From IMG/VR virus record IMGVR_UViG_3300044766_000005, positions 1-43,394 of that record: a stretch of 43,394 nt of DNA; one strand, given 5' to 3'. Within the stretch, counting starts at the first letter, position 1. The number at the start of each line of letters is the position of its first letter. The notes below the pieces were generated by a model. It did not search any database, had not been told where the DNA came from, and saw nothing but the letters and a program-made list of their open reading frames with translations. A program made the translations under genes and the position numbers. Shown piece after piece: positions 2,482-15,287 of this stretch. This DNA comes from a virus.

Positions 2482-3072
2482 ATGAGCGAGAACCAAGGAT
2501 TGCAGCGGATCGTCGGTGGTCAGTCCGTGACATTGAAGAACTCCCTGACCGCATTGGCCCAGAGCCGCAAGCAGCGCCCCATTATATTGCTGGACATCAG
2601 CGGTTCAATGGGCGAAGCTGCCAATGGCGAAGCGCGCAAGATTGACCTATTGCGTGAACTGGTTTTCTCCCTCCGTGAAAAAACCACGTTCGACCAGGCC
2701 GTTTTTGATACTGGCGTTGAATGGACGGATGACGTTCCAGAGCCACGAGGTTCCACGGCGTTGCACTTGGCCCTTGATGAAGCCGCGCAGCGCAAGGCCC
2801 GGCGATATGTATTAATCACAGATGGACAACCTGATTCGCAAGAGCTGGCTATGGAAGCCGCAACTCGCCTCGGTGCGCCGTTGGATGTTTTCTACGTTGG
2901 TCCCGCTGAGGACATGTACGCGCAGCAATTCCTCCATAAATTGGCTACTGCTGCAAAGGGCCTATACAATCAGGCCGACCTTGCAGCGACCGCACAGTTG
3001 GAGAACAAGGTAATGCTGGCCTTGAATCCAGCCAGTGATGAGGACATCAAGCGCGGGCCGATTGCTCTCTAG
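2482..3072 (+). CDS. von Willebrand factor A (vWA) domain protein
   Basis: The 196-aa product is essentially one vWA domain. The metal-ion adhesion site is complete: DISGS (Asp38, Ser40, Ser42) after strand RPIILL, the Thr in GSTAL (Thr92), and the Asp in ITDGQPD (Asp114). vWA domains bind partner proteins through a Mg2+ ion, and in bacteria often work with MoxR-type AAA ATPases. No MoxR-like gene is visible here, so the partner is either one of the unknown early proteins or a host protein. The start has a clear site (GGGAG, nine bases upstream). The domain call is firm; its role in the phage is unknown. Confidence 0.9.
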   Translation: MSENQGLQRIVGGQSVTLKNSLTALAQSRKQRPIILLDISGSMGEAANGEARKIDLLRELVFSLREKTTFDQAVFDTGVEWTDDVPEPRGSTALHLALDEAAQRKARRYVLITDGQPDSQELAMEAATRLGAPLDVFYVGPAEDMYAQQFLHKLATAAKGLYNQADLAATAQLENKVMLALNPASDEDIKRGPIAL

Positions 3073-4746: not shown

Positions 4747-4971
4747 ATGAACGAGAAACATGAACACCGCATGCAAGCTCGTTGCCGTGAGCAAGGCCAC
4801 CAATTCGTAATCTGGGAACGTGCAAGGTCTGGAGATTTTGAAGTCTGCAAGTGGTGTGGCGTTGTCCGTTGCACAAAGACCGACGCTGAACTGATCCGTG
4901 AAGGATACAATGACGGAATGCGCTTTCGCAATGGTTCAATGCGGGCAACGTTGGACCGGAAGTTTGACTAA
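4747..4971 (+). CDS. Cys-rich mini-protein, paralogue of the 3472 gene
   Basis: A 74-aa product with a strong GGAGG site. It contains RCREQGHQFVIWER and, after an acidic loop, FEVCKWCGVVRC. Cys, Gly-His and CxxC could hold one zinc ion. The spacing of EQGH to CKWCG resembles the 54-aa protein at 3472. The extra C-terminal tail (KTDAELIREGYNDGMRFRNG) is basic and helical. The role is unknown. Duplication of a small zinc protein within 1.3 kb suggests selection for two versions of the same interaction. Confidence 0.78.
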   Translation: MNEKHEHRMQARCREQGHQFVIWERARSGDFEVCKWCGVVRCTKTDAELIREGYNDGMRFRNGSMRATLDRKFD

Positions 4972-4972
4972 C

Positions 4973-5119
4973 ATGAAACTCTTTATCGTTGAATTCGCAA
5001 TAGACGTAATGCGGTTAGTCCATGACACACTATTCACGTTATTTCTCAAGTCTGGCAACGTTTCCTTCGCATTGCAGATGAAACGAATTGCAATACTGCG
5101 AGAAAGGGGAATCCGATGA
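4973..5119 (+). CDS. Small amphipathic protein, 48 aa
   Basis: A short frame beginning one base after the previous stop and ending in an ATGA overlap with the next gene, as expected in a coupled operon. The first 28 residues (MKLFIVEFAIDVMRLVHDTL...) are hydrophobic but broken by charges, so a membrane-associated amphipathic helix is likelier than a full transmembrane one. The C-terminus is basic. No separate ribosome site is obvious, so translation would depend on coupling. Moderate confidence. Confidence 0.5.
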   Translation: MKLFIVEFAIDVMRLVHDTLFTLFLKSGNVSFALQMKRIAILRERGIR

Positions 5120-5391
5120 AAGCTCGTATTGCAGAATTGCGCCTGCAAACCAAGAAAGACGGCAAGACATACATGACGTTTCACCTGGATGGTGCAATCC
5201 GTAAACTTGGATTGCTCTCTGGTGCAAAGATCCAGGCATTCAGCTTTGATGCAAAGAAAGTATCGCTGAAATTCATCCTCCCCCCGCTTGCACCAGAAAT
5301 CACACCAGAACAGAAACTCCACTTGCACAACATGGCCAATACAATTGCAGCCTCTCTCAATAAGGAACCCGCCGATGCCATACAAGGATGA
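5116..5391 (+). CDS. Hypothetical protein, 91 aa
   Basis: The ATG overlaps the preceding stop (ATGA) and follows AAGGGG. The first 55 residues alternate basic strands (MKARIAELRLQTKKDGKTYMT...), then comes a proline-rich hinge (LPPLAPEITPEQ) and a terminal helix. The pattern would suit a small nucleic-acid- or protein-binding module, but no family is recognised. It overlaps the next gene by 17 bases. Confidence 0.72.
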   Translation: MKARIAELRLQTKKDGKTYMTFHLDGAIRKLGLLSGAKIQAFSFDAKKVSLKFILPPLAPEITPEQKLHLHNMANTIAASLNKEPADAIQG

Positions 5392-5641
5392 ACCAACTGA
5401 TCCATACATGCAACTAATTGGCAAAGTCACACTGTTCATTTTCAACAGATTCGTAGACTTTGCAGCAAGTGAACAGAACTTTACAGACTTCTCCCTTACT
5501 ATGTCAACTGCAACGATGGATTACATCAAGAACACGCTGAAAGTTGAGAATCCATTCGTTGCATTCATGGTCGCGATTGCAGCAACGGATGAAGCAAAGA
5601 AGATTATCACGCGGAGAGCTGAGTTTGCAATGACGAATTAG
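5375..5641 (+). CDS. Hypothetical protein, 88 aa
   Basis: The ATG at 5375 lies ten bases after AAGGAA and inside the end of the previous gene. The product is mainly helical, with aromatic-rich amphipathic segments (IGKVTLFIFNRFVDFAA and NPFVAFMVAIAA) that are not long enough for secure membrane helices. No family is recognised. It is the last gene before the strong terminator at 5650, so it closes the first early unit. Confidence 0.7.
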   Translation: MPYKDEPTDPYMQLIGKVTLFIFNRFVDFAASEQNFTDFSLTMSTATMDYIKNTLKVENPFVAFMVAIAATDEAKKIITRRAEFAMTN

Positions 5642-5999: not shown

Positions 6000-6217
6000 C
6001 TAACGGATCGCAGGAACCGGGAGTTGTTTTGCCGGAAGTGATGGAGAGAATGAATCTTTCCATCGTTGGAATGACCACAGAATTGCATCGCTCGTGGAAA
6101 GCCCTTGCTGCATTGCGGGGAATATCCATGAAGGATGCTCTGTTAGAAGCATTGAAGCTTTGGTGTACGGCACAGATGGAGAAAACGGCAAATGTCAATC
6201 GCGGACCTACTCAATAA
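5996..6217 (+). CDS. Ribbon-helix-helix-like DNA-binding protein
   Basis: The 73-aa product has a strand (MNLSIVGM) followed by two helices (TTELHRSWKALAALRG and SMKDALLEALKLW), the order of Arc/CopG/ParG-type ribbon-helix-helix repressors, with the usual Gly between helices. Such proteins dimerise and bind operators through the strand. The two palindromic or repeated DNA areas (791-1060 and 42823-42858) are candidate targets, but no direct link is seen. It is coupled to both neighbours, by an ATGA overlap upstream and a 26-base overlap downstream. The fold assignment rests on pattern only. Confidence 0.65.
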   Translation: MTNGSQEPGVVLPEVMERMNLSIVGMTTELHRSWKALAALRGISMKDALLEALKLWCTAQMEKTANVNRGPTQ

Positions 6218-6551
6218 AGCCGGTGGAAAGCCCTTTCATGCGCTAACACCGGATGATGCATTGCGCTTTATTGAAAGCCTCCGGCTTGAAAGGGCAATGA
6301 ATCCTGGGCATGGCAATGGCACGAAGAAGCGCCGTGTTGTATTGCCAAAGCCTGATGCTCCAGCCAAGAGGAGCAGGAAGGAAAAGAAAACAGAATTAGA
6401 TCGGTTCATTGCAAGTCTTTCGCCAGAAGAGAAAGCATCGTTCTTCCAACAGATAGAAAACGCCACAAAGGGAGCGAGCAATGTCAATGCTACTGTCACA
6501 GCCACAGATTCCCAAAGCCTCGGATCAAACAATATCCATCCACAATCCTGA
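6192..6551 (+). CDS. Hypothetical basic protein, 119 aa
   Basis: Starts inside the RHH-like gene after GGAG and ends 71 bases into the nuclease gene. The N-terminus (SIADLLNKAGGKPFHALTPD) is helical, the centre is very basic (GTKKRRVVLPKPDAPAKRSR), then an acidic helix (ELDRFIASLSPEEKASFFQQ) and a disordered tail. The basic linker could contact DNA or RNA. No family is recognised. The C-terminal 24 codons are in dual-coding sequence. Confidence 0.68.
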   Translation: MSIADLLNKAGGKPFHALTPDDALRFIESLRLERAMNPGHGNGTKKRRVVLPKPDAPAKRSRKEKKTELDRFIASLSPEEKASFFQQIENATKGASNVNATVTATDSQSLGSNNIHPQS

Positions 6552-7530
6552 CGTCCCTGCATTAACCATGTATCTCGATCCCATTAATCGAACATTCACG
6601 TTTGATTATTCAACCTATTCCCTACCCTGTGACCGCAAGCTCTACCTCAGCCGCTACCGTTCACTCCGCAAGAAAGTGCAACATGAAGCATTGCACGCCG
6701 GAAAATCAATCCACATTTTCGTTGAGAATTTCTGGCAGGGCATGGATTTCAAACTATGCCTAGAGAAATTCCTTGCAACTGCAACCGAGGAAGGCTCTCC
6801 ACTGGATGTTGACCCTAATTCAATAAACAAGCGTGGTGTGCGCCGGCTTAGTGAAATAATGGGCGCATACTATCGCAAATATGATCCAATGCGATCCCGT
6901 TGGCAAGTCTATCAGATCAACGGCAAGCCCGCAGTTGAAATTGGCTTCGCATTCATCCTCGGCGTTGTGGATGGATGGACAATCATCTACTGCGGACGCA
7001 TTGATCGAATCATGCTTATGGACAATGAACCAACAATCGTTGACACAAAATCCACAACCCGCTTTGGTGCAACTTACTGGAACATGCTCCGTCCCAATCA
7101 TCAAATCACTGGCTACACCGCTGCAATCAAAGAGCTAATCAATATTCTAATCAAGCGTTCTGCCATTGATGCAGTCTACATCGGTGACGAGCGCAAGCCT
7201 GACCAAAATGGAAACTACCGTATTCCAGCAGCGACGAAAGCCGCTGGTCCTGATGCAATCTCTGACTGGATGCTCAATGCACAGTTTGAACACGGCCCGA
7301 CAACGCGCAGCCAGAATGATGTTGACGAATGGTGGATTGAAATGCTCGTTGAAGGGGATAGGATGCGGAAGTTGTTTGAACATTCCAATCATGAAGATTG
7401 GCCTAAGCGCACGAGCCAATGCAATGCATTTGGCGAATGCGAATTCCGCGATCTCTGTGCATTAACTGGAATCAATGAGCAACTAGTGGAGAATCTCTAT
7501 GAAATACATACCTGGTCCCCCTACGATTGA
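6481..7530 (+). CDS. PD-(D/E)XK nuclease, Cas4/RecB-like with Fe-S cysteines
   Basis: The 349-aa product shows the RecB/Cas4 nuclease order: a first Cys (LPCDRKLYL, Cys50), helix residues HAGKSIH, then the catalytic GRIDRIML (Asp175) and TIVDTKST (Asp188, Lys190), the QITGY motif (Gln208, Tyr212) and a C-terminal cluster CNAFGECEFRDLC. Together Cys50 and the last three cysteines could hold a 4Fe-4S cluster, as in Cas4 and AddB. Such enzymes resect DNA ends for recombination and fit with the Sak4-like ATPase and ssDNA-binding protein downstream. GGGAGC precedes the start. No CRISPR is present, so a Cas adaptation role is unlikely. Confidence 0.87.
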   Translation: MSMLLSQPQIPKASDQTISIHNPDVPALTMYLDPINRTFTFDYSTYSLPCDRKLYLSRYRSLRKKVQHEALHAGKSIHIFVENFWQGMDFKLCLEKFLATATEEGSPLDVDPNSINKRGVRRLSEIMGAYYRKYDPMRSRWQVYQINGKPAVEIGFAFILGVVDGWTIIYCGRIDRIMLMDNEPTIVDTKSTTRFGATYWNMLRPNHQITGYTAAIKELINILIKRSAIDAVYIGDERKPDQNGNYRIPAATKAAGPDAISDWMLNAQFEHGPTTRSQNDVDEWWIEMLVEGDRMRKLFEHSNHEDWPKRTSQCNAFGECEFRDLCALTGINEQLVENLYEIHTWSPYD

Positions 7531-7846
7531 CCATAATAATGGGGATTTGCAACAGCCCGTAAAGGAAAGGTTGTATTGCAAAGGCATTGCAGCACAGATA
7601 ATGATCCATGAAAATGCAGCGTTGCTGTTCAAGGCTGATCCAGAATTCAATTTCTTTCAGGTTCCATCAGAGAAGGTTGTTATTGGAATCGTTTGGATTC
7701 CACGGGGTGCAGAGATTGCCGTTGCTCTTTGGACACGACATGCATTTGACAGTTTCTTTGCACAAGTACGGGACGGTCACAAATTCTTTCAAACTGTAAT
7801 GGTGGATAAACCGCAAGCCACCAAGATATTTGAAAAGGAGAAGTAA
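7499..7846 (+). CDS. Hypothetical protein, 115 aa
   Basis: Starts 32 bases inside the nuclease gene after GGAG. The product is compact, with alternating strands (SEKVVIGIVWIPRGAEIAVA) around residues 58-78 and a basic end (KIFEKEK). No motif is recognised. The stop overlaps the next ATG (TAATG), so the two are probably coupled. Confidence 0.7.
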   Translation: MKYIPGPPTIDHNNGDLQQPVKERLYCKGIAAQIMIHENAALLFKADPEFNFFQVPSEKVVIGIVWIPRGAEIAVALWTRHAFDSFFAQVRDGHKFFQTVMVDKPQATKIFEKEK

Positions 7847-7998
7847 TGGATCTCATGGGCGATTTGTTCCTTCTCGCTGTTGGTTTTATTTGTGGTGCAT
7901 TAACAGCCAAGTGGAGCCGCAAACCACGCAAGGCGGAGCCGACGATCATTCATGGTTTCAATCTCTCCCATAGCCAGCGCCAATACATTGAGAGATAA
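7846..7998 (+). CDS. Small single-span membrane protein, 50 aa
   Basis: A short gene in TAATG coupling with its upstream neighbour and a GGAG site. Residues 3-21 (LMGDLFLLAVGFICGALTA) form a probable transmembrane helix, followed by a strongly basic segment (KWSRKPRKAEP), so the tail should lie in the cytoplasm. Its size would suit a small holin or a membrane regulator, but it lies among replication genes and no lysis partner is next to it. Function unknown. Confidence 0.65.
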   Translation: MDLMGDLFLLAVGFICGALTAKWSRKPRKAEPTIIHGFNLSHSQRQYIER

Positions 7999-8000
7999 CA

Positions 8001-8450
8001 ATGGTTGATTGGGGCGATTCTCCATTTGATATTGCAGACGCAATCCTGCAAGAGCGGAAACAGGCAATAAAATTCCGTTATGTTTATTGCCCGCTTCACA
8101 ATAAACGAATGATATTGGAAGCAGCCGGTCCGCACGGTCCCTACTACATATGCCCCATCTTCTATTGCGATATGAAGATTGGAGCACACCCCAATGGCAA
8201 ACCAAAAGGCCGTCCAGCGAATTACATTACCAGGAAAGCCAGAATTGAAGCCCATGAATGGTTTGACAAGTTGTACCAGCGCGCTAATGGAAATGATCCA
8301 ACCCTTGACCGTGATACCGCTTATTCATTCCTGGCTGCTGCAATGGGAATCTCAAAATCAGAATGCCACATTGCAAATTTCTCAACGCAAGAATGCAAAA
8401 GGGTAATTGAAATCTGTAAACCTGCTCGGTTCCCTGTGGCGGGGACGTAA
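8001..8450 (+). CDS. DUF3268-like zinc-finger protein
   Basis: The 149-aa protein matches the layout of the phage DUF3268 family: a first half with Cys/His knuckles (VYCPLHNKRM and YYICPIFYCDMKIGAHPNG), a basic linker (KPKGRPANYITRKARIEAH), then a helical half with RDTAYSFLAAAMG and the typical ECHIANFSTQECKRVIE block. The family is widespread in phages, often near replication genes, and probably binds nucleic acid, though its activity is not known. Nothing in the motifs is missing. The family call rests on recall of the ECHI...C pattern. Confidence 0.72.
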   Translation: MVDWGDSPFDIADAILQERKQAIKFRYVYCPLHNKRMILEAAGPHGPYYICPIFYCDMKIGAHPNGKPKGRPANYITRKARIEAHEWFDKLYQRANGNDPTLDRDTAYSFLAAAMGISKSECHIANFSTQECKRVIEICKPARFPVAGT

Positions 8451-8454
8451 GTGC

Positions 8455-8495
8455 AAAGCCGGCTCCCGGCAATGCGGCCGAGCTTTCATAGAAAG
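8455..8495 (+). promoter_or_regulatory. Two mutually exclusive RNA hairpins before the 8504 gene
   Basis: AAAGC-CGGC (8455-8463) can pair with GCCG-a-GCTTT (8477-8486). Alternatively CTTTC (8483-8487) pairs with GAAAG (8491-8495), which would bury part of the AAAGGAG ribosome site (8492-8498). The two stems share bases 8483-8486, so only one can form. This is the arrangement of a translational switch. The pairing is visible, but regulation is inference. Confidence 0.45.
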
Positions 8496-8503
8496 GAGCA
8501 CAC

Positions 8504-8770
8504 ATGGGTAGAACAGTGTTTGACTCTCCGAGTCCAACTCTTCAGCGTTGCAGCGGTTGTGAGAAGTTGCATGACGTAGAGCGTCCATTTGATCGACCAA
8601 CCAACTGGACGGGTGTTTCAATCGCACAGACGCACGAAGAGCACGGCGTTGTAGGAGAGAAAGGAGCAAGGTTGATGTTCTGTGAGGATTGCACTCCTCA
8701 CTTTGACATCGCAATGCTCACGTTGAAAGACAGCCTCAAGCCTGAGCTGGAGGTGGATCTAACGCAGTAA
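8504..8770 (+). CDS. Zinc-ribbon-like protein, 88 aa
   Basis: The ATG follows AAAGGAG by five bases. Two CxxC pairs (LQRCSGCEKLH near residue 16 and MFCEDCTPH near 61) could hold one zinc ion in a ribbon. The middle carries many histidines (THEEHGV), and the tail is acidic (ELEVDLTQ). No specific family is recognised. The gene is flanked on both sides by RNA hairpins next to ribosome sites, suggesting translational control of this pair of genes. Confidence 0.7.
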   Translation: MGRTVFDSPSPTLQRCSGCEKLHDVERPFDRPTNWTGVSIAQTHEEHGVVGEKGARLMFCEDCTPHFDIAMLTLKDSLKPELEVDLTQ

Positions 8771-8777
8771 TTGAACC

Positions 8778-8839
8778 TGCATGGAGTGGTTATGCCAACG
8801 AATGTCTCGTTTGGATCACACTCATAGCCACTCCATGCA
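8778..8839 (+). promoter_or_regulatory. Long RNA hairpin abutting the ribosome site of the 8852 gene
   Basis: TGCATGGAGTGGTTATG (8778-8794) pairs along all 17 bases with 8823-8839, with one G-T wobble. Inside, CCAACGA (8795-8801) pairs with 8807-8814 with one bulged T, leaving a 5-base loop and an 8-base one-sided bulge (8815-8822). No T-run follows, so it is not a normal terminator. GGGAGG (8841-8846) starts two bases after the stem. A structured leader that controls translation, or a processing or protein-binding site, is likely. Confidence 0.7.
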
Positions 8840-8851
8840 TGGGAGGATGAA

Positions 8852-9169
8852 ATGAAACACAAATACGTTGTTGCAAAAGTGGATTTTTTCGAGCGTCCTG
8901 GACCTGCAAATGATCCTACTCACACCGAATGCTGTTTCCAAGACTTCGCATTGGTTACAGCACAAGGACCAAGTGAAGCATTAGAGCAATGGGCAAAGGT
9001 GTTTAATACCAAGGTTGCAATGCCCTATGAACTGAGCCTTCACCATACCCATTGCTACAGTGACTTCAACGAGCAATACTATCTCGTTGCAATTCTGAGA
9101 GAACTCCATGATCCCATTGACATGGATAGCAACAGACGGGCGGGAGATTCCCATAGCTTCATTGGATGA
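8852..9169 (+). CDS. Hypothetical protein, 105 aa
   Basis: Translated behind the long hairpin at 8778 with a GGGAGG site. The N-terminal strand (KHKYVVAKVDFFERPG) and the ordered mixture of His, Cys and acidic residues (LHHTHCYSDFNEQYY) suggest a small alpha/beta fold, perhaps binding a metal. No family is recognised. The last 62 bases overlap the next gene, whose ATG lies inside. Confidence 0.68.
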   Translation: MKHKYVVAKVDFFERPGPANDPTHTECCFQDFALVTAQGPSEALEQWAKVFNTKVAMPYELSLHHTHCYSDFNEQYYLVAILRELHDPIDMDSNRRAGDSHSFIG

Positions 9170-9461
9170 TGATTATCTCTGCAATATCTATGCACAGATG
9201 ATCCGTTCAATGGAGGAAAAGAAACTTTCCCGTGTCGGGAATCTGATGCTCGCTGCAATGGCAACAAATGATCCAGCCACAAGAGCATGGATCGAACGTG
9301 AGATTAGAAACGATGAAGAAATGTCAATACACCAATACATAACACTGGAATGGAAAACCACAAACTTTCGACGATACCAGAAATATCTTGGAGTTATTGC
9401 AGAACTCAACCAGCGTAACATTAACCCATTTGACGATAACAATGGATGGAGAAAACTATGA
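9108..9461 (+). CDS. Hypothetical protein with a DGREIPI motif, 117 aa
   Basis: The N-terminus WIATDGREIPIASLDDDYL resembles a short motif common in many small phage proteins (DGR-I-I-(E/D)-D-HL), followed by helices ending DNNGWRKL. Such proteins often lie in replication regions; their role is unknown. The stop overlaps the ATPase start in ATGA (9458-9461), so translation is probably coupled. The start is weakly supported (GAGA) and lies inside the preceding gene. Confidence 0.65.
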   Translation: MIPLTWIATDGREIPIASLDDDYLCNIYAQMIRSMEEKKLSRVGNLMLAAMATNDPATRAWIEREIRNDEEMSIHQYITLEWKTTNFRRYQKYLGVIAELNQRNINPFDDNNGWRKL

Positions 9462-10276
9462 AATGCCCTTGGCCGATCCTCTGGCTGGACGCTGATAATC
9501 GTCTAGCTGAAATGACCCTAGCACAGAAATACATGAACGAAATGAAGCTCATCGTTTGGCCTGTCACTGAGCCATTGTTTATTGGCTCATTGCGTGTCCG
9601 TCAAACCAAGTATGAGCGAAAGGGTAGCAGTGGATTTCAAACCCTTGCCGCTCCTATCAATCAGCCGAAGGGATACATTCAATTGCTTGAATACATGGAT
9701 GCAATCCCTGAGGCAATCAAGAAACTAGGAATTCGCACCATAATCCTTGATCCAGTCACCCGCGTAGTGGAACACATGATGCGGTTCCTAGCCTATCAAA
9801 CCAAGCATGGAGTTATTGAAGAATCAGCTTGGGGAATCTACCTGTCAAACCTGGAGGAGTTGATGGGTACGTTATTGGCACTCCCCGTAAACGTAGGTGT
9901 GGTACTGCATGACCGCGAATACCGTGACGAAGATACCGGCCACCTGTTGCAAGTCAAGCCATTGCTCAGTGGTCAGATGCAAGCAAAGATCGGTTCATAC
10001 TTCGCGGAAGTGTATCACACCGAATGCAAAGATGAAGGAGGTGTCACGAAATGGAGAATTAGGACACAGCCATCACCCAATCACAACTGTCGCACATCCC
10101 GTCCATTAGATGCAATTGAACCAGCCCATTTTCCAACAATCATGAAGAAGGGAATCTGGGATGCAAAGCCCTGGTCTGTCATGGCTTATGGGCCATTTGG
10201 AACAGGGAAATCCACGATGTTTCTCTCTCTCTGTGAACTTCCCGCAGACCCTCCACCAGTGGAGGAAAAGAAATGA
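9458..10276 (+). CDS. Sak4/RecA-like ATPase with apparent circular permutation
   Basis: Taken from the ATG at 9458 (GGAG nearby, ATGA overlap), the protein has 272 aa. It opens with WPILWLDADNRL (residues 5-16), which in Sak4-type single-strand annealing/RecA-like ATPases comes some 25 residues after Walker A. Then follow the Walker B strand (IRTIILDPVTRV, about 92-103), VNVGVVLHDREYRDEDTGH (about 144-162), LLSGQMQAKIGSYFAEVY and the terminal WRIRTQPSPN block. Only after these comes a complete Walker A, AYGPFGTGKST (243-253, Lys251), and the chain ends 19 residues later. No Walker A is encoded upstream. The parts fit the family in rotated order. Its probable role is ssDNA recombination or annealing with the ssDNA-binding protein downstream. 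Confidence 0.82.
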   Translation: MKCPWPILWLDADNRLAEMTLAQKYMNEMKLIVWPVTEPLFIGSLRVRQTKYERKGSSGFQTLAAPINQPKGYIQLLEYMDAIPEAIKKLGIRTIILDPVTRVVEHMMRFLAYQTKHGVIEESAWGIYLSNLEELMGTLLALPVNVGVVLHDREYRDEDTGHLLQVKPLLSGQMQAKIGSYFAEVYHTECKDEGGVTKWRIRTQPSPNHNCRTSRPLDAIEPAHFPTIMKKGIWDAKPWSVMAYGPFGTGKSTMFLSLCELPADPPPVEEKK

Positions 10277-10509
10277 AAACATTGCTCTGTCCAATCTGTT
10301 CAACCAAAATCAAACCCACAATAACAGATCAATTCATGGGTGAAACCTGTTGCCCCCATTGCTTGACAATGATTGATCTGGAAAGGATCAGTGATGGACA
10401 GCCGGGACATTTCAATCATGAAGGAAACCATCAACGTCTTGCGGAGAAAATTCGTGAAGGATCTTCGCAGGATTCCAGCATCGAGGCTATCGCCAGCGGA
10501 AATGGGTAA
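10273..10509 (+). CDS. Zinc-ribbon mini-protein, 78 aa
   Basis: Joined to the ATPase by an ATGA overlap. CPICSTKIK and CCPHCLTMI supply two CxxC pairs 19 residues apart, a probable zinc ribbon. The rest is hydrophilic and likely disordered (EKIREGSSQDSS). The last 116 bases also encode the start of the next gene in another frame, so the exact C-terminus is less sure than the ribbon. Confidence 0.72.
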   Translation: MKTLLCPICSTKIKPTITDQFMGETCCPHCLTMIDLERISDGQPGHFNHEGNHQRLAEKIREGSSQDSSIEAIASGNG

Positions 10510-10594
10510 CATAGAAGCGGTGATGCAGAAGTCCTGCACTTCCACAATGATTCAACTCTTGGAGCTGCAATCCGCCAAACGCACGGAGCCGTAA
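10394..10594 (+). CDS. Hypothetical basic helical protein, 66 aa
   Basis: The ATG at 10394 follows AAAGGA by six bases but lies inside the zinc-ribbon gene, with 116 shared bases. The product (MDSRDISIMKETINVLRRKF...) is a charged helical pair with an RRK/RRI basic patch. No family is recognised. The TAATG overlap with the next zinc gene supports it as a real translated frame. If only one of the two overlapping frames were real after 10394, this one has the better coupling downstream. Confidence 0.55.
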   Translation: MDSRDISIMKETINVLRRKFVKDLRRIPASRLSPAEMGNIEAVMQKSCTSTMIQLLELQSAKRTEP

Positions 10595-10767
10595 TGTTGA
10601 CGAAGAACACATGCATTGGTGGCGGATGGAATCAAACCCTGTTACAATGTTCCGTTTGCGGAACAGAGGAGGTAACACAACTCATTGATTACATAAATGA
10701 CGAACCTGTATGTTTAACTTGTATCAACAACAACATTCAACCAATGGAGAAAAACAATGACCAGTGA
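10594..10767 (+). CDS. Zinc-ribbon mini-protein, 57 aa
   Basis: A short gene in TAATG coupling with the preceding one. LQCSVCGTEEV and PVCLTCINN give two CxxC pairs about 20 residues apart, as in a single zinc ribbon. It ends within the first ten bases of the ssDNA-binding-protein gene. The role is unknown; it is the fourth or fifth tiny Cys-pair protein of the early region. Confidence 0.68.
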   Translation: MLTKNTCIGGGWNQTLLQCSVCGTEEVTQLIDYINDEPVCLTCINNNIQPMEKNNDQ

Positions 10768-11239
10768 TCCCGAAGTTGCCGTTGATGCGCTGCCTAGTGT
10801 TAATCTTGACGACATCCCTGAGAACGCTCCTGTTCTGGCTGAGGACAAGCTCTATCTTGTGGAAGTGAAGGAATCCACCCGCAAGATGGGGAAGGAATCA
10901 GGGGAACCATACATCAACCTGAAGATTGAAGTCATGGATGATCCCATCGATGAGGGATTTCCAATGTATGACATTCTCCCGCTTCCATCAAACATGAAGC
11001 AGGGCGAGGAACGCGAGGCATTCGTCAAGCGCACCGCTCGTCGCTGCAATCGGATGAAGCGCGCTGTCGTTGCATTCGCTGTCAAGTCCACTGGCACGAT
11101 GAGCCAACAGGAATTGACGGAACAGTTCATTGGCCGCCGTGCATGGTGCCGTGTCAAGACTGGCAAAGATCAGAACAACAATGACCAGTCACGTCCAGTG
11201 GAGTATTACCCGGAAGCCAACAAGCCAGCTTCTGTCTAG
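10757..11239 (+). CDS. Probable single-stranded DNA-binding protein (DUF669-like)
   Basis: The 160-aa product has the plan of phage DUF669/SSB-like proteins: an acidic start, a strand pair KLYLVEVKESTRK, then GEPYINLKIEVMDDP, a basic helical middle (KRTARRCNRMKRAVVAFA) and a final strand EQFIGRRAWCRVKTG with the late VEYYPE. Such proteins form an OB-like fold that covers ssDNA in phage replication and commonly lie beside Sak4-type recombinases, as here. The site AATGGAG precedes the start. No acidic tip like that of bacterial SSB is present. The family is a reading of pattern and context. Confidence 0.7.
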   Translation: MTSDPEVAVDALPSVNLDDIPENAPVLAEDKLYLVEVKESTRKMGKESGEPYINLKIEVMDDPIDEGFPMYDILPLPSNMKQGEEREAFVKRTARRCNRMKRAVVAFAVKSTGTMSQQELTEQFIGRRAWCRVKTGKDQNNNDQSRPVEYYPEANKPASV

Positions 11240-11280
11240 TTGCATTGCCGACTAACTTCGCGTTAGAACGGTGATGCAGA

Positions 11281-11329
11281 GCGGGGGGATTGTCCAGGGC
11301 ATCTGCAATCCCCTCGCTTCTTCTTTCTT
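11281..11329 (+). terminator. Probable rho-independent terminator
   Basis: GCGGGGGGATTG (11281-11292) pairs with CAATCCCCTCGC (11306-11317), 12 pairs with one wobble and a 13-base loop. It is followed by TTCTTCTTTCTT, a pyrimidine tract rather than a pure T-run. It lies between the ssDNA-binding protein and polymerase genes, so it may be leaky or attenuating, because no promoter is clear before 11367. Confidence 0.7.
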
Positions 11330-11343
11330 CGCGGAGAAATATC

Positions 11344-11367
11344 ATGCAACGACGGGAACGTGATTAA
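11344..11367 (+). CDS. Possible 7-residue leader peptide (MQRRERD)
   Basis: A micro-frame starts ten bases after GGAG and stops in TAATG, sharing one base with the polymerase start. The polymerase gene has only a weak GGGAA of its own. A ribosome ending here could re-initiate on the polymerase. Such a short frame can arise by chance, so this is tentative. Confidence 0.35.
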   Translation: MQRRERD

Positions 11368-12965
11368 TGCCAACGCTTGATGAAATCCGACAACATCTTG
11401 CAGATAAACGCGTTGTTCGGGGACGTGGAAATCCTGCTGCAATGATTCATCTCATCGGGGAAGCTCCAGGAGCATTGGAAGATGACAAAGGGATTCCGTT
11501 CTGTGGTCCGAGCGGGCAGGAATTGGAAAGGATGTGCCGTGCAGCAGGATTCACATTCAATGACTGTTATATCCATAACGTCATTCCATACCGCCCGCCG
11601 CAAAACAAACTCAAAGGACTCTCCGTCACGCCGGACTTCTTCTACCCGTTATTGGATGATTTCTACTCGCAATGGAAACCTAATATCATAGTCCCGCTTG
11701 GTAATACTGCATTGGAGGCAGTTTATGGGGACCGAAGAATTACCAAATGGCGTGGTTCAATACTCAACTCGAAATATAACATCAAATGCATTCCCACAAT
11801 CCATCCGGCTGACCTTTTTCGTGAGTGGTCATGGCGCAATGTCATTATCTGGGATCTCAATAGAGTCAATCAAGAATCCACAAGCGCCGTTATTCATCTC
11901 CCACAACGTACATTCATAACCCGTCCAACATTCGATCAAGCAATGGATGAACTTATTGCACTCCGTAATGAACAAGAACTAGCCATTGACATCGAAGGGA
12001 GAGCCAATGGAATATCATGCATTGGTCTTGCAGCACGGCCCACATCAGCAATCTGTATCCCTTTCACGACAGCTAATGGATCTTCGTACTGGAACGATTT
12101 TGAAGAAGTGGAAATTTGGAAAGAGCTTTCTCAGCTACTCTACAATCCTAATTCCAAGAAAATATTCCAAAATGCATCTTTTGATGTTGCAATCCTCTAT
12201 CTTTATTCACTTGTTACTCAGGGTGAAATCTGGGATACTATGTGGATGCATAATTGCCTTTGGCCAGAACTTCCACATGGTCTTGACTTCCAGACATCTG
12301 TTTATACAAGAGAACCTTATTACAAAGACGATGGAAAGATATGGTTAAAATCCATACCGGAGAACGATTTCTGGATATACAACTGCAAAGACGCCGCTGT
12401 GACGTTTGAGATATATCAATGTGAACTGCGGGAGTTGCAGCAGAAAGGGTTGTTGGAATTCTATAAGAAACATTATATGAATCTGCAACCAGTCACCATC
12501 GAGTCACAGTTGTTTGGTTGGAGGATTGGGCTACGCCGTCGAGAACGTATGTCAATAACGTGGGCGAAATACGTTGTTGATAGTGAGCTAGAATTGAATC
12601 GCAAAGCTACATTCGACGTTAATGCAATGTCCCCAAAACAGATCATGCACTTGCTCTATACACACTTCAACCTACCTCCACAGCGCCATCCCAAGTCTGG
12701 TGCAATGACAGTGAATGAAGATGCGCTGGAGAAATTGAAAATCAAGACACAGCATCCAATCCTCGATGCAATCCTTGACGTTCGTGCAAAGCGGAAGTTC
12801 AAGTCATCATATCTGGATGTGGAATTGGACAGGGATAGCAGAATCCGTTGCTCCATTGGGCACACAGATCATGGCCGGCTTAAAGCAACTAAGTTCCTTG
12901 GCAGAAGCGGTACAAACTTGCAAACCATCCCCGAAGTTGGACGGGCGTTCTTCATTGCAGACTAG
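11367..12965 (+). CDS. UDG-like domain + 3'-5' exonuclease + N-terminal part of family A DNA polymerase
   Basis: The 532-aa product joins three modules. Residues 25-165 resemble family 4 or 5 uracil-DNA glycosylases (GEAPGALED, KGIPFCGPSG, NVIPYRPP, PLGNTALEA, TIHPADL). Residues 200-360 hold the proofreading exonuclease with Exo I AIDIEG (Asp208, Glu210), Exo II FQNASFD and Exo III YNCKDAA. Residues 375-532 are the thumb and start of the palm, including RAKRKFKSSYLD and GTNLQTIPEVGRAFFIAD. The chain stops there, immediately before catalytic motif A, which is encoded separately at 13313. UDG-polymerase fusions are known from SPO1-type phages. The split at this point is unusual. Confidence 0.9.
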   Translation: MPTLDEIRQHLADKRVVRGRGNPAAMIHLIGEAPGALEDDKGIPFCGPSGQELERMCRAAGFTFNDCYIHNVIPYRPPQNKLKGLSVTPDFFYPLLDDFYSQWKPNIIVPLGNTALEAVYGDRRITKWRGSILNSKYNIKCIPTIHPADLFREWSWRNVIIWDLNRVNQESTSAVIHLPQRTFITRPTFDQAMDELIALRNEQELAIDIEGRANGISCIGLAARPTSAICIPFTTANGSSYWNDFEEVEIWKELSQLLYNPNSKKIFQNASFDVAILYLYSLVTQGEIWDTMWMHNCLWPELPHGLDFQTSVYTREPYYKDDGKIWLKSIPENDFWIYNCKDAAVTFEIYQCELRELQQKGLLEFYKKHYMNLQPVTIESQLFGWRIGLRRRERMSITWAKYVVDSELELNRKATFDVNAMSPKQIMHLLYTHFNLPPQRHPKSGAMTVNEDALEKLKIKTQHPILDAILDVRAKRKFKSSYLDVELDRDSRIRCSIGHTDHGRLKATKFLGRSGTNLQTIPEVGRAFFIAD

Positions 12966-12974
12966 GAGGCTAAA

Positions 12975-13316
12975 ATGAAAATGGACTATTACCAGGAAGA
13001 GGCCGAGCAAACCGCAATGTATCCAGAACTTGGACTATCCATTCACTATTCCACAATGAAGCTGTGTGGAGAAGCTGGAGAGTTTGCGGAGAAGGTTGGC
13101 AAACTCTGGCGGAACCAGAACAAGAAACTCATCAAAGACTACGATGTTATAGACGTTCTTGCACTAGTCAAAGAACTTGGAGACATTCTTTGGTATATTG
13201 CAGACATTGCAACTGCTTTGCAGATCCCGCTTTCTAGCATCGCCGCAGTCAATCTTGAAAAACTTCGAGATCGCGCCAATCGTGGAGTCATCAAGTCTGA
13301 GGGCGATGATAGATGA
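12975..13316 (+). CDS. MazG-like nucleotide pyrophosphohydrolase
   Basis: The 113-aa protein has a complete MazG active-site pattern: GEAGEF (Glu33, Glu36) followed by KELGDILWY (Glu67, Asp70), the EXXE...EXXD metal-binding set, and ends with AVNLEKLRDRANRG, the usual MazG C-terminal block. MazG enzymes hydrolyse (d)NTPs or alarmones to monophosphates and pyrophosphate; in phages they are thought to tune host nucleotide pools or ppGpp. The site AGGAGG is strong. The gene lies exactly between the polymerase halves: nine bases after the first and coupled by ATGA to the second. No intron or intein signature surrounds it. Confidence 0.9.
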   Translation: MKMDYYQEEAEQTAMYPELGLSIHYSTMKLCGEAGEFAEKVGKLWRNQNKKLIKDYDVIDVLALVKELGDILWYIADIATALQIPLSSIAAVNLEKLRDRANRGVIKSEGDDR

Positions 13317-14260
13317 TAACGTTACAACAACCTGGCATTTCACTAGCCAGTCAACAAAAGGTGCTTATCAATGTTGACAGCAGCCAAGCCGAAGCTCGTG
13401 TTGTTGCGCGTCTCTGTAAAGCAATTACCGGCACCAGTCGCTTGGATGATATTTTTGTCTCTGGACGCTCCATTCACAAAGTTGTCGGATCTATCATATA
13501 CAAAAGACCTGAAACTCAAATACCGAAAGATAATCGGCCCGGTGCAATGTACTATGTATCTAAACGCACCGTTCACGCATGCAACTATGATATGGGAATC
13601 GAAAAGTATGCAATCGTTACAGGTACTTCTATCCCAATTGCAAAAGGGAATTACAATACCTTCCACAGAGGATTCCCGGAAATCAAAGGAACATTCCACA
13701 AGTGGGTGCAAACTGAAATACAGAAAGAACGGAGCATCACTAACGCATATGGTAGAATTCACGTATTCCTTGACAGATTTGGACAAGACCTGTATCGCAA
13801 AGCCTATTCGTACTTCCCGCAATCCAGTGTTGCGGACCTTATCACACTAGCGTTCATTGATCTGTATAACCAGAAAAACAGCGATTGGCAATTAGACCTA
13901 TTGCTCACCGTACATGATAGCATAGTCGCACAATGCTTGGCTGTTCCGGAACACGTCTGGGGTGCAATACAATTGATCCAAGCCCTGATGGAGCGTCCGA
14001 TGAACGTCCTTGGATTGGATCTGACCATTCCATCCGAAGCCTCCATTGGCCGTTCATGGAAATCAATGCATGCAGTCAAGACATTGGACGACGTAAAACG
14101 CATCCTTCGGAGGCTTCGTTATCGCAATGAGACACCACAAAGATTGGATCAAAGCGTACATGGAATACACAGCGGACCAGGAATCCCCCGAAGCGTTCCA
14201 TTTCTGGACAGCAATGTCATTGCTAGCGGGGACGATGAGGAGGAACGTGTGGTTGGATAG
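13313..14260 (+). CDS. C-terminal catalytic part of family A DNA polymerase
   Basis: Begins at an ATGA overlap with mazG. After a 15-residue leader it reads KVLINVDSSQAEARVVARL, catalytic motif A (Asp22). SKRTVHACNYDMG (from Lys84) is the O-helix motif B, AYSYFPQSSVADL the downstream helix, and LLLTVHDSIV (His201, Asp202) motif C. All catalytic residues of a family A polymerase are thus present, but without exonuclease or thumb, which are in the 11367 product. The two proteins must associate to work. The last roughly 44 codons overlap the DUF3987 gene by 134 bases, and the tail after residue 270 (RLDQSVHGIHSG...) looks like run-on. Confidence 0.9.
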   Translation: MITLQQPGISLASQQKVLINVDSSQAEARVVARLCKAITGTSRLDDIFVSGRSIHKVVGSIIYKRPETQIPKDNRPGAMYYVSKRTVHACNYDMGIEKYAIVTGTSIPIAKGNYNTFHRGFPEIKGTFHKWVQTEIQKERSITNAYGRIHVFLDRFGQDLYRKAYSYFPQSSVADLITLAFIDLYNQKNSDWQLDLLLTVHDSIVAQCLAVPEHVWGAIQLIQALMERPMNVLGLDLTIPSEASIGRSWKSMHAVKTLDDVKRILRRLRYRNETPQRLDQSVHGIHSGPGIPRSVPFLDSNVIASGDDEEERVVG

Positions 14261-15287
14261 GGGATTCTATAAGATATTCCCCAACCTTTACATTATCTTT
14301 GTTGCAGAAAGTGGAAAGGTTAGGAAATCCACCGCGCAAGAATTCGGCGTTGAGAAGATATTGAAACAAATAGATGGCGTTTCAATATTCCAAGAGCGCA
14401 TGACGCAAGAGGGAATAATGAAACAAATGGCGGAACCAAAACTCACGCCAAAGGGAAACGTCAACTTAGATGGAACTGTTTATTTATTTGCACCAGAACT
14501 AACGATGATGCTTCCTGGAGATGAAATATCCCGTAAGGTGATGGGATTCATGACTTCCATCTATATGGGAAAGGATAAATACTCCCGCCCGCTTACTAGT
14601 GGAACAGGGTATGTTGAAATAGAAAACGTATTGATAAACTTCCTCGGTGCAACTGCACCAGATTGGCTAGAAACTATTGGTGAGGATGTTGCAAAGGGTG
14701 GATTCCTCGCCCGCATGATATTCATAACCGCAGACAAACGAAAGAAAGACGTTGCATGGCCCAAGCCTCCTATTGGTGGTGTTTCCATTCAATCTCTCGT
14801 TGATGACTTACAAGAAATTGCAAATGTCAAAGGCCAAATGATGCCGACAGCCAAGCTCATTAAAGCCTTTGAAGATTGGTATTGTATCAAACGCCCAGAA
14901 CATGATGATCCAAGAATTCAATCATTCCGTGAACGCTCTCATGATCTTGCATTGCGTCTATCCATGCTACTATCAATGGCGACAAGTGACAATCTAGTAT
15001 TGGACGAACAGCATCTTCAACTAGCTATTACACTCATCAGTGAGATTGAACAGTACGTTCCAAAAGCTCTATCCCATGTTGGTACGTCATTGCAATCCCG
15101 TGAAGCAGATAGGATATTGAAGCAACTGCAACGGCATGGTGGCCGGATGACGCGGGCAGAGTTATCACGGATGAATTCCTGGAAAATGAAAATCAGCGAA
15201 TTGGATGAAGTCATTCAACAACTAATGACAAACCAAGTTATCATTATGGATCGCCAGGGTAAATCAATTTATTACGTTATCAAATAG
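14127..15287 (+). CDS. DUF3987-like replicative helicase/primase-associated protein
   Basis: The 386-aa protein resembles the DUF3987 family found with phage replication proteins: ESPEAFHFWTAMSLLAG, the FPNLYIIFVAESGKVRKSTA segment (a P-loop-like turn with Lys-Ser-Thr at about 67-69), an acidic central strand, FLGATAPDWLE and KGGFLARMIFI, and a C-terminal winged-helix-like end (GGRMTRAELSRM). These are RecA-fold helicase-like ATPases. It is the only helicase candidate in the window, so it may be the replicative helicase. GGAGG lies 13 bases upstream of the ATG, rather far. The start is inside the polymerase end. Confidence 0.75.
   Translation: MRHHKDWIKAYMEYTADQESPEAFHFWTAMSLLAGTMRRNVWLDRGFYKIFPNLYIIFVAESGKVRKSTAQEFGVEKILKQIDGVSIFQERMTQEGIMKQMAEPKLTPKGNVNLDGTVYLFAPELTMMLPGDEISRKVMGFMTSIYMGKDKYSRPLTSGTGYVEIENVLINFLGATAPDWLETIGEDVAKGGFLARMIFITADKRKKDVAWPKPPIGGVSIQSLVDDLQEIANVKGQMMPTAKLIKAFEDWYCIKRPEHDDPRIQSFRERSHDLALRLSMLLSMATSDNLVLDEQHLQLAITLISEIEQYVPKALSHVGTSLQSREADRILKQLQRHGGRMTRAELSRMNSWKMKISELDEVIQQLMTNQVIIMDRQGKSIYYVIK

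Follow-up and report, generated by a model that had tools for sequence, protein, structure and literature searches.

Gene content and motif order

The window analyzed here is the whole 43,394-base record of an uncultivated virus, and the ATPase gene with its elements and the nuclease, DUF669 and polymerase genes described below are on its plus strand. The open reading frame at 9458–10276 encodes a 272-amino acid protein that we describe as a circularly permuted Sak4/RecA-core ATPase on the basis of swapped-block profile matches, a rotation test, and a permuted ortholog at 1370–2212 of a second viral contig (L017). Its ATG overlaps the stop codon of the upstream ORF (9108–9461) in an ATGA sequence and follows, after six bases, a Shine-Dalgarno-like GGAG at 9448–9451 (start region 9448–9461). 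A second in-frame ATG is found at 9446.

The new N-terminus of the protein is the beta2 strand PILWLDADNRL (9473–9505; LDADNR is residues 10–15), which aligns with CWILDLDCKVLE of L102, a relative of ordinary motif order discussed below, and after rotation with the LIIDFEAGL-type strand of Sak4 proteins. By homology, the acidic end of this strand would occupy the position of Glu96 in RecA. The Walker B strand IRTIILD (9731–9751), with IILD at residues 95–98, IILDP at 95–99 and the acidic residue D98, was located by profile alignment and is kept in both L017 and L102. It is followed by a conserved VVLHDRE strand (9899–9919), a sensor-like region around His151 that aligns with the Sak4 profile and with L102; LHDREYRDEDTG corresponds to residues 150–161. 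Alignments with L017 and L102 place the junction between the old C-terminus (RPLDAIEPAHFPTIMKKGIW) and the old N-terminus at 10103–10171, the C-terminus of L102 (FLNEFEPADFRVIFDKDYR) being alignable to about residue 231. The relocated beta1–Walker A–alpha1 segment WSVMAYGPFGTGKSTMFLSLCEL (10172–10240) matches positions 39–58 of the Sak4 profile and contains the Walker A motif GPFGTGKS (10190–10213; Gly245–Ser252, with Lys251), which ends 20 residues short of the C-terminus and reads GPYSSGKT in L017. The remaining Pro/Glu-rich tail and stop codon (10241–10276) are unconserved in the alignment with L017. The RecA core stands alone in this protein, as Pfam and PHROG profile searches returned no further domain.

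The motif order proposed in a first-pass annotation, with LDAD, IILD and LHDRE preceding a final GPFGTGKST, was thus found at the same places in the ORF. That annotation also held that no Walker A motif lies upstream and that no rest of another ATPase follows. Both statements agree with our searches: a six-frame scan of 6000–14500 detected no other G-x4-GK[ST], and no Sak4 remnant or second copy was present within about 1–2 kb upstream or downstream of the gene in the window and in L018. On these two results we reject a simple fusion or a frameshift. Exact direct repeats of at least 11 bases, which could mark a rearrangement, were absent from inside the gene in the window and in L018.

The neighboring genes, in order, encode a PD-(D/E)XK nuclease of the recombination/replication module (6481–7530; PF12705, E 5e-12), the permuted protein, a DUF669/SSB-like protein that is a likely partner (10757–11239; PF05037, E 2e-5, and a weak match to the SSB family phrog_378, E 0.024), DNA polymerase A, and a primase-like protein. 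Nuclease and DUF669 genes also flank the permuted gene in L018, where their products are 47% and 50% identical, respectively, to those of the window. According to profile searches the polymerase is split into two ORFs (11367–12965 and 13313–14260; 11367–14260 overall) with a MazG-like gene (12975–13316) between them. The split falls at motif A (GRAFFIAD / KVLINVDSSQAEAR) and is also listed for L017 (6977–9564), L010 and L012. In L017 the N-terminal half stops at the same residue as in the window, with DUF3310-like and MazG-like ORFs after it, and the halves are 0.2–1.6 kb apart in several other related phages. In 11367–12965 the exonuclease/polymerase part carries an N-terminal fusion to a uracil-DNA-glycosylase-superfamily domain (PF03167, E 1.5e-22), and the same N-terminal region could be aligned in L017, L007 and L008. 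Upstream of the replication module, D-x-SGSM proteins that appear von Willebrand A-like from sequence are encoded in the window (2482–3072) and in L102 (3808–4434).

Profile matches before and after rotation

The protein was matched by Pfam AAA_24 (PF13479; E 1.1e-11) and by the Sak4 family PHROG 124 (E 2.2e-15), in each case in two stretches. When its C-terminal segment was moved to the front, each of these became one collinear match, covering positions 2–189 of AAA_24 and 40–232 of PHROG 124 (up to 62.7 bits). We also aligned the pair formed by the window and L017 proteins with a profile of 58 ordinary Sak4s using hhalign. Residues 64–233 aligned with template positions 82–247, from after beta2 onward (block 4e-14), and residues 240–259, the Walker A segment, aligned in swapped order with positions 39–58 (P 4.6e-7). 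The hhalign score of the pair was 96.1 (163 columns) in the native order; when the pair was rotated at every sixth column, the score was highest, at 138.5 (206 columns), with the cut at residue 237. The first-pass annotation had suggested moving the last 40 residues to the front; the restored order stands, and the best cut shifts to residue 237, that is, to the last 36 residues. PHROG 124, Pfam and hhalign all joined the blocks on rotation, whereas a HMMER profile of the 58 Sak4s scored them separately and did not join them (54.2 and 54.3 bits before and after rotation).

Rotation of the L017 protein increased its score with RecA (PF00154) from 15.6 to 22.0 bits, in an alignment running from the P-loop through beta2, and with phrog_1366 from 28.0 to 38.6 bits. 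The family searches listed Sak4/AAA_24 and RecA-type models and no Ras-like or YRG GTPase family; a weak Septin match to the L017 P-loop was below its cut-off.

A permuted ortholog and an ordinary-order sister

The first-pass annotation proposed a search of related viruses for the same motif order, and one was found in L017 (contig IMGVR_UViG_3300010391_000041), which comes from another IMG/VR data set. This contig encodes a 280-amino acid ortholog with the same permuted order (48% identity over 265 residues) that ends in MLFGPYSSGKTTLALTLCDV and an unconserved tail. Its Walker A motif is intact, as are Walker B and the beta2 acid. The start of the L017/L018 ortholog has the same ATGA-coupled arrangement as the window gene. 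The window and L017 proteins share 54% identity in the core and 38% in the P-loop segment. Synonymous sites have reached saturation (pS 0.8 overall and 0.97 in the P-loop part) and non-synonymous change is lower (pN 0.36 over the gene and 0.43 in the P-loop part), which indicates long-term retention of the relocated Walker A.

Since the window is the contig of an uncultivated virus, an assembly or binning artefact has to be considered. The same order in an independent contig makes an assembly error very unlikely, and with 48% identity, a shared ATGA start and the same neighbors in L017 we reject an artefact as vanishingly improbable. In the collections searched, the window and L017 proteins were the only two permuted sequences. 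Scans of viral contigs with a protein pattern and a DNA pattern, both among few and strict patterns, returned only the L017 contig and two unrelated ORFs. Genome contigs scanned with two protein patterns, likewise few and strict, gave no matches, and tblastn detected no permuted relative in phages and plasmids. The closest relative found, with an 89% identical terminase, is IMGVR_UViG_3300012228_000013, and no Sak4 profile match was present on its 28.6-kb contig.

We compared 80 viral loci with related polymerases and 10 others. Among these, L102 (IMGVR_UViG_3300035099_000176) carries at 4763–5617 a gene of ordinary order that is matched by an HMM of the permuted pair with an E value of 1.7e-50 and that itself matches PHROG 124 (E 3e-9). 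In L102 the gene is followed by DUF669, polymerase and primase-like genes, as in the window; it differs in its ordinary motif order, and its polymerase A is one uninterrupted ORF. BLAST aligned window residues 6–231 with L102 residues 48–277 (36% identity over 230 amino acids) and residues 240–266 with L102 residues 22–48, so that the two blocks meet with no real overlap or gap. By these alignments the break lies in the loop between alpha1 and beta2, and the old ends are joined around EPAHFPTIMKKGIWDAKP / WSVMAYG. With the rearranged gene shared by L017 and the ordinary version present in L102, the sequences point to a natural circular permutation and not to a sequencing error.

In a tree of the shared core, the window and L017 proteins formed a pair (100/95) with L102 next to it (100/99) and ordinary Sak4s around them. 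This position suggests that the permutation is derived and that it arose, most simply, once, after the split from L102. The Walker A motif was N-terminal in all 80 of the 80 Sak4 homologs fetched by profile. In the other compared loci with a Sak4 match it also preceded the core, except where a contig end truncates the ORF and in a few ORFs that showed no strict motif. The window protein shares with the Sak4 family (PHROG 124/AAA_24; HK620 Sak4, PMC5928155) its profile match, Walker A and Walker B motifs, the beta2 acid, an LHDRE-like conserved strand, the size of a RecA core alone, and a neighborhood of nuclease, SSB and polymerase genes. Unlike those proteins, it has its Walker A segment at the C-terminus and a chain that starts at beta2. 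Since it departs in this way from the collinear, Walker-A-first RecA order, we classify it as a Sak4-derived permuted variant and not as an ordinary member. The earlier reading of the gene as a permuted Sak4 therefore gains support from rotation, from a second virus with the same order, and from the mapping of the rearrangement onto L102.

A probable natural permutant of a RecA-type ATPase

A structure of the native sequence was predicted with AlphaFold2 from an alignment of 117 unmodified rows in which fragment rows were left unpaired. The model was of moderate confidence (pLDDT 67, pTM 0.67), with pLDDT values of about 80 over residues 1–10 and 76–81 over residues 241–260 and low confidence around the linker; an earlier model from two sequences was poor (pLDDT 50). 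It predicts a strand at 240–245 and a helix at 251–258. The nearest folds in Foldseek were those of phage AAA/RecA-like proteins, with a best E of 2e-9; solved folds, among them KaiC and the human BCDX2 (RAD51-paralog) complex, matched only weakly (no E below 0.001). RecA, RAD51 paralogs and KaiC are the nearest solved folds, from which the window protein differs in its permuted order and its lack of extra domains. The top viral match, BFVD A0A516LUR7 (248 amino acids; E 2.3e-9, next 3e-6), extends over 286 alignment columns, and this protein could be another permuted relative.

The gene is very probably a natural circular permutant of phage Sak4, a RecA-core-only ATPase that anneals ssDNA, and the usual fold and activity are expected. 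The permuted topology is well supported; the activity and the geometry of the active site are what we infer. The chain starts at beta2 and goes on with Walker B and the remainder of the core, after which a short linker joins the old C-terminus to the old N-terminus and beta1, the P-loop and alpha1 come last. We expect the C-terminal beta1 strand to take a central place in the normal RecA sheet and the P-loop to complete the ATP site; judging by the known fold, the new termini would be distant from that site. Like other Sak4s, the protein would bind and anneal ssDNA in an ATP-dependent manner beside the nuclease and the SSB-like protein, and it would act in phage replication and recombination, serving the nuclease/SSB/polymerase module. 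In HK620 Sak4, ATP is needed for ssDNA binding and annealing, and SSB stimulates the reaction (PMC5928155). Another report describes Sak4 recombinases as required for phage replication in Staphylococcus aureus (PMC5499656). The permuted gene may have originated by in-frame tandem duplication and subsequent trimming at both ends, a route that we only infer, since no remnant of a second copy is found near the gene.

A Sak4 that had lost its N-terminal P-loop and acquired a C-terminal one from a different ATPase gene, such as that of a clamp loader or helicase loader, would be functionally permuted as well, though not through rotation of one gene. Short as they are, P-loop segments look much alike; on its own, the L017 segment gives slightly higher scores with helicase and clamp-loader families than with Sak4, and weak PDB sequence matches are to RFC. 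However, the window segment alone has Sak4 as its best PHROG (PHROG 124, E 8e-4, 19.8 bits; next 11.7), hhalign places the segment of the pair at the exact Sak4 P-loop positions with a score of 51.4, and the segment fits L102 next to the other block without real overlap or gap, so that we consider a foreign origin quite unlikely.

Terminal beta-alpha units on linkers of about 20 residues are plausible swap elements and RecA-type proteins oligomerize; the C-terminal beta1–P-loop–alpha1 unit might then dock into the next subunit and complete the active site in trans. In ordinary Sak4, however, a single chain connects these ends, and docking in cis therefore needs no new geometry, which renders a domain swap rather improbable. 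The ATP site could instead be dead or incomplete, with the C-terminal GKST undocked and annealing proceeding without ATP. The low confidence of the model around the linker would be compatible with this, as would an older result on a Walker A mutant of PA73 Sak4, for which PMC5928155 reports a mild loss only. Nevertheless, both permuted genes retain G-x4-GK[ST] although their synonymous sites are saturated, they retain Walker B and the beta2 acid too, and the HK620 enzyme depends on ATP (PMC5928155), which makes a dead site unlikely.

Natural circular permutation of P-loop NTPases is known from GTPases with other cut points, the YRG/YlqF proteins having the order G4-G5-G1-G2-G3 and cpRAS the order G3-G4-G5-G1-G2 (PMC2430557). 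The window protein is instead a RecA-type ATPase whose cut lies between alpha1 and beta2, so that the P-loop unit comes last. No permuted RecA-type ATPase was reported in the literature searched, a partial set with most subscription journals outside it. The protein is probably the first naturally permuted RecA-type (ASCE) ATPase, a functional recombinase in which beta1–P-loop–alpha1 comes last and is detached from beta2. A beta–P-loop–alpha–beta element has been proposed as the founding unit of these enzymes (PMC7758060); a RecA-core enzyme that copes with having its P-loop helix and beta2 apart is relevant to this idea. The ordinary-order and permuted sisters allow a direct comparison and offer a rare test of how important chain order is in a RecA-type motor. 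Annotation that presumes Walker A to come first may overlook permuted proteins of this kind.
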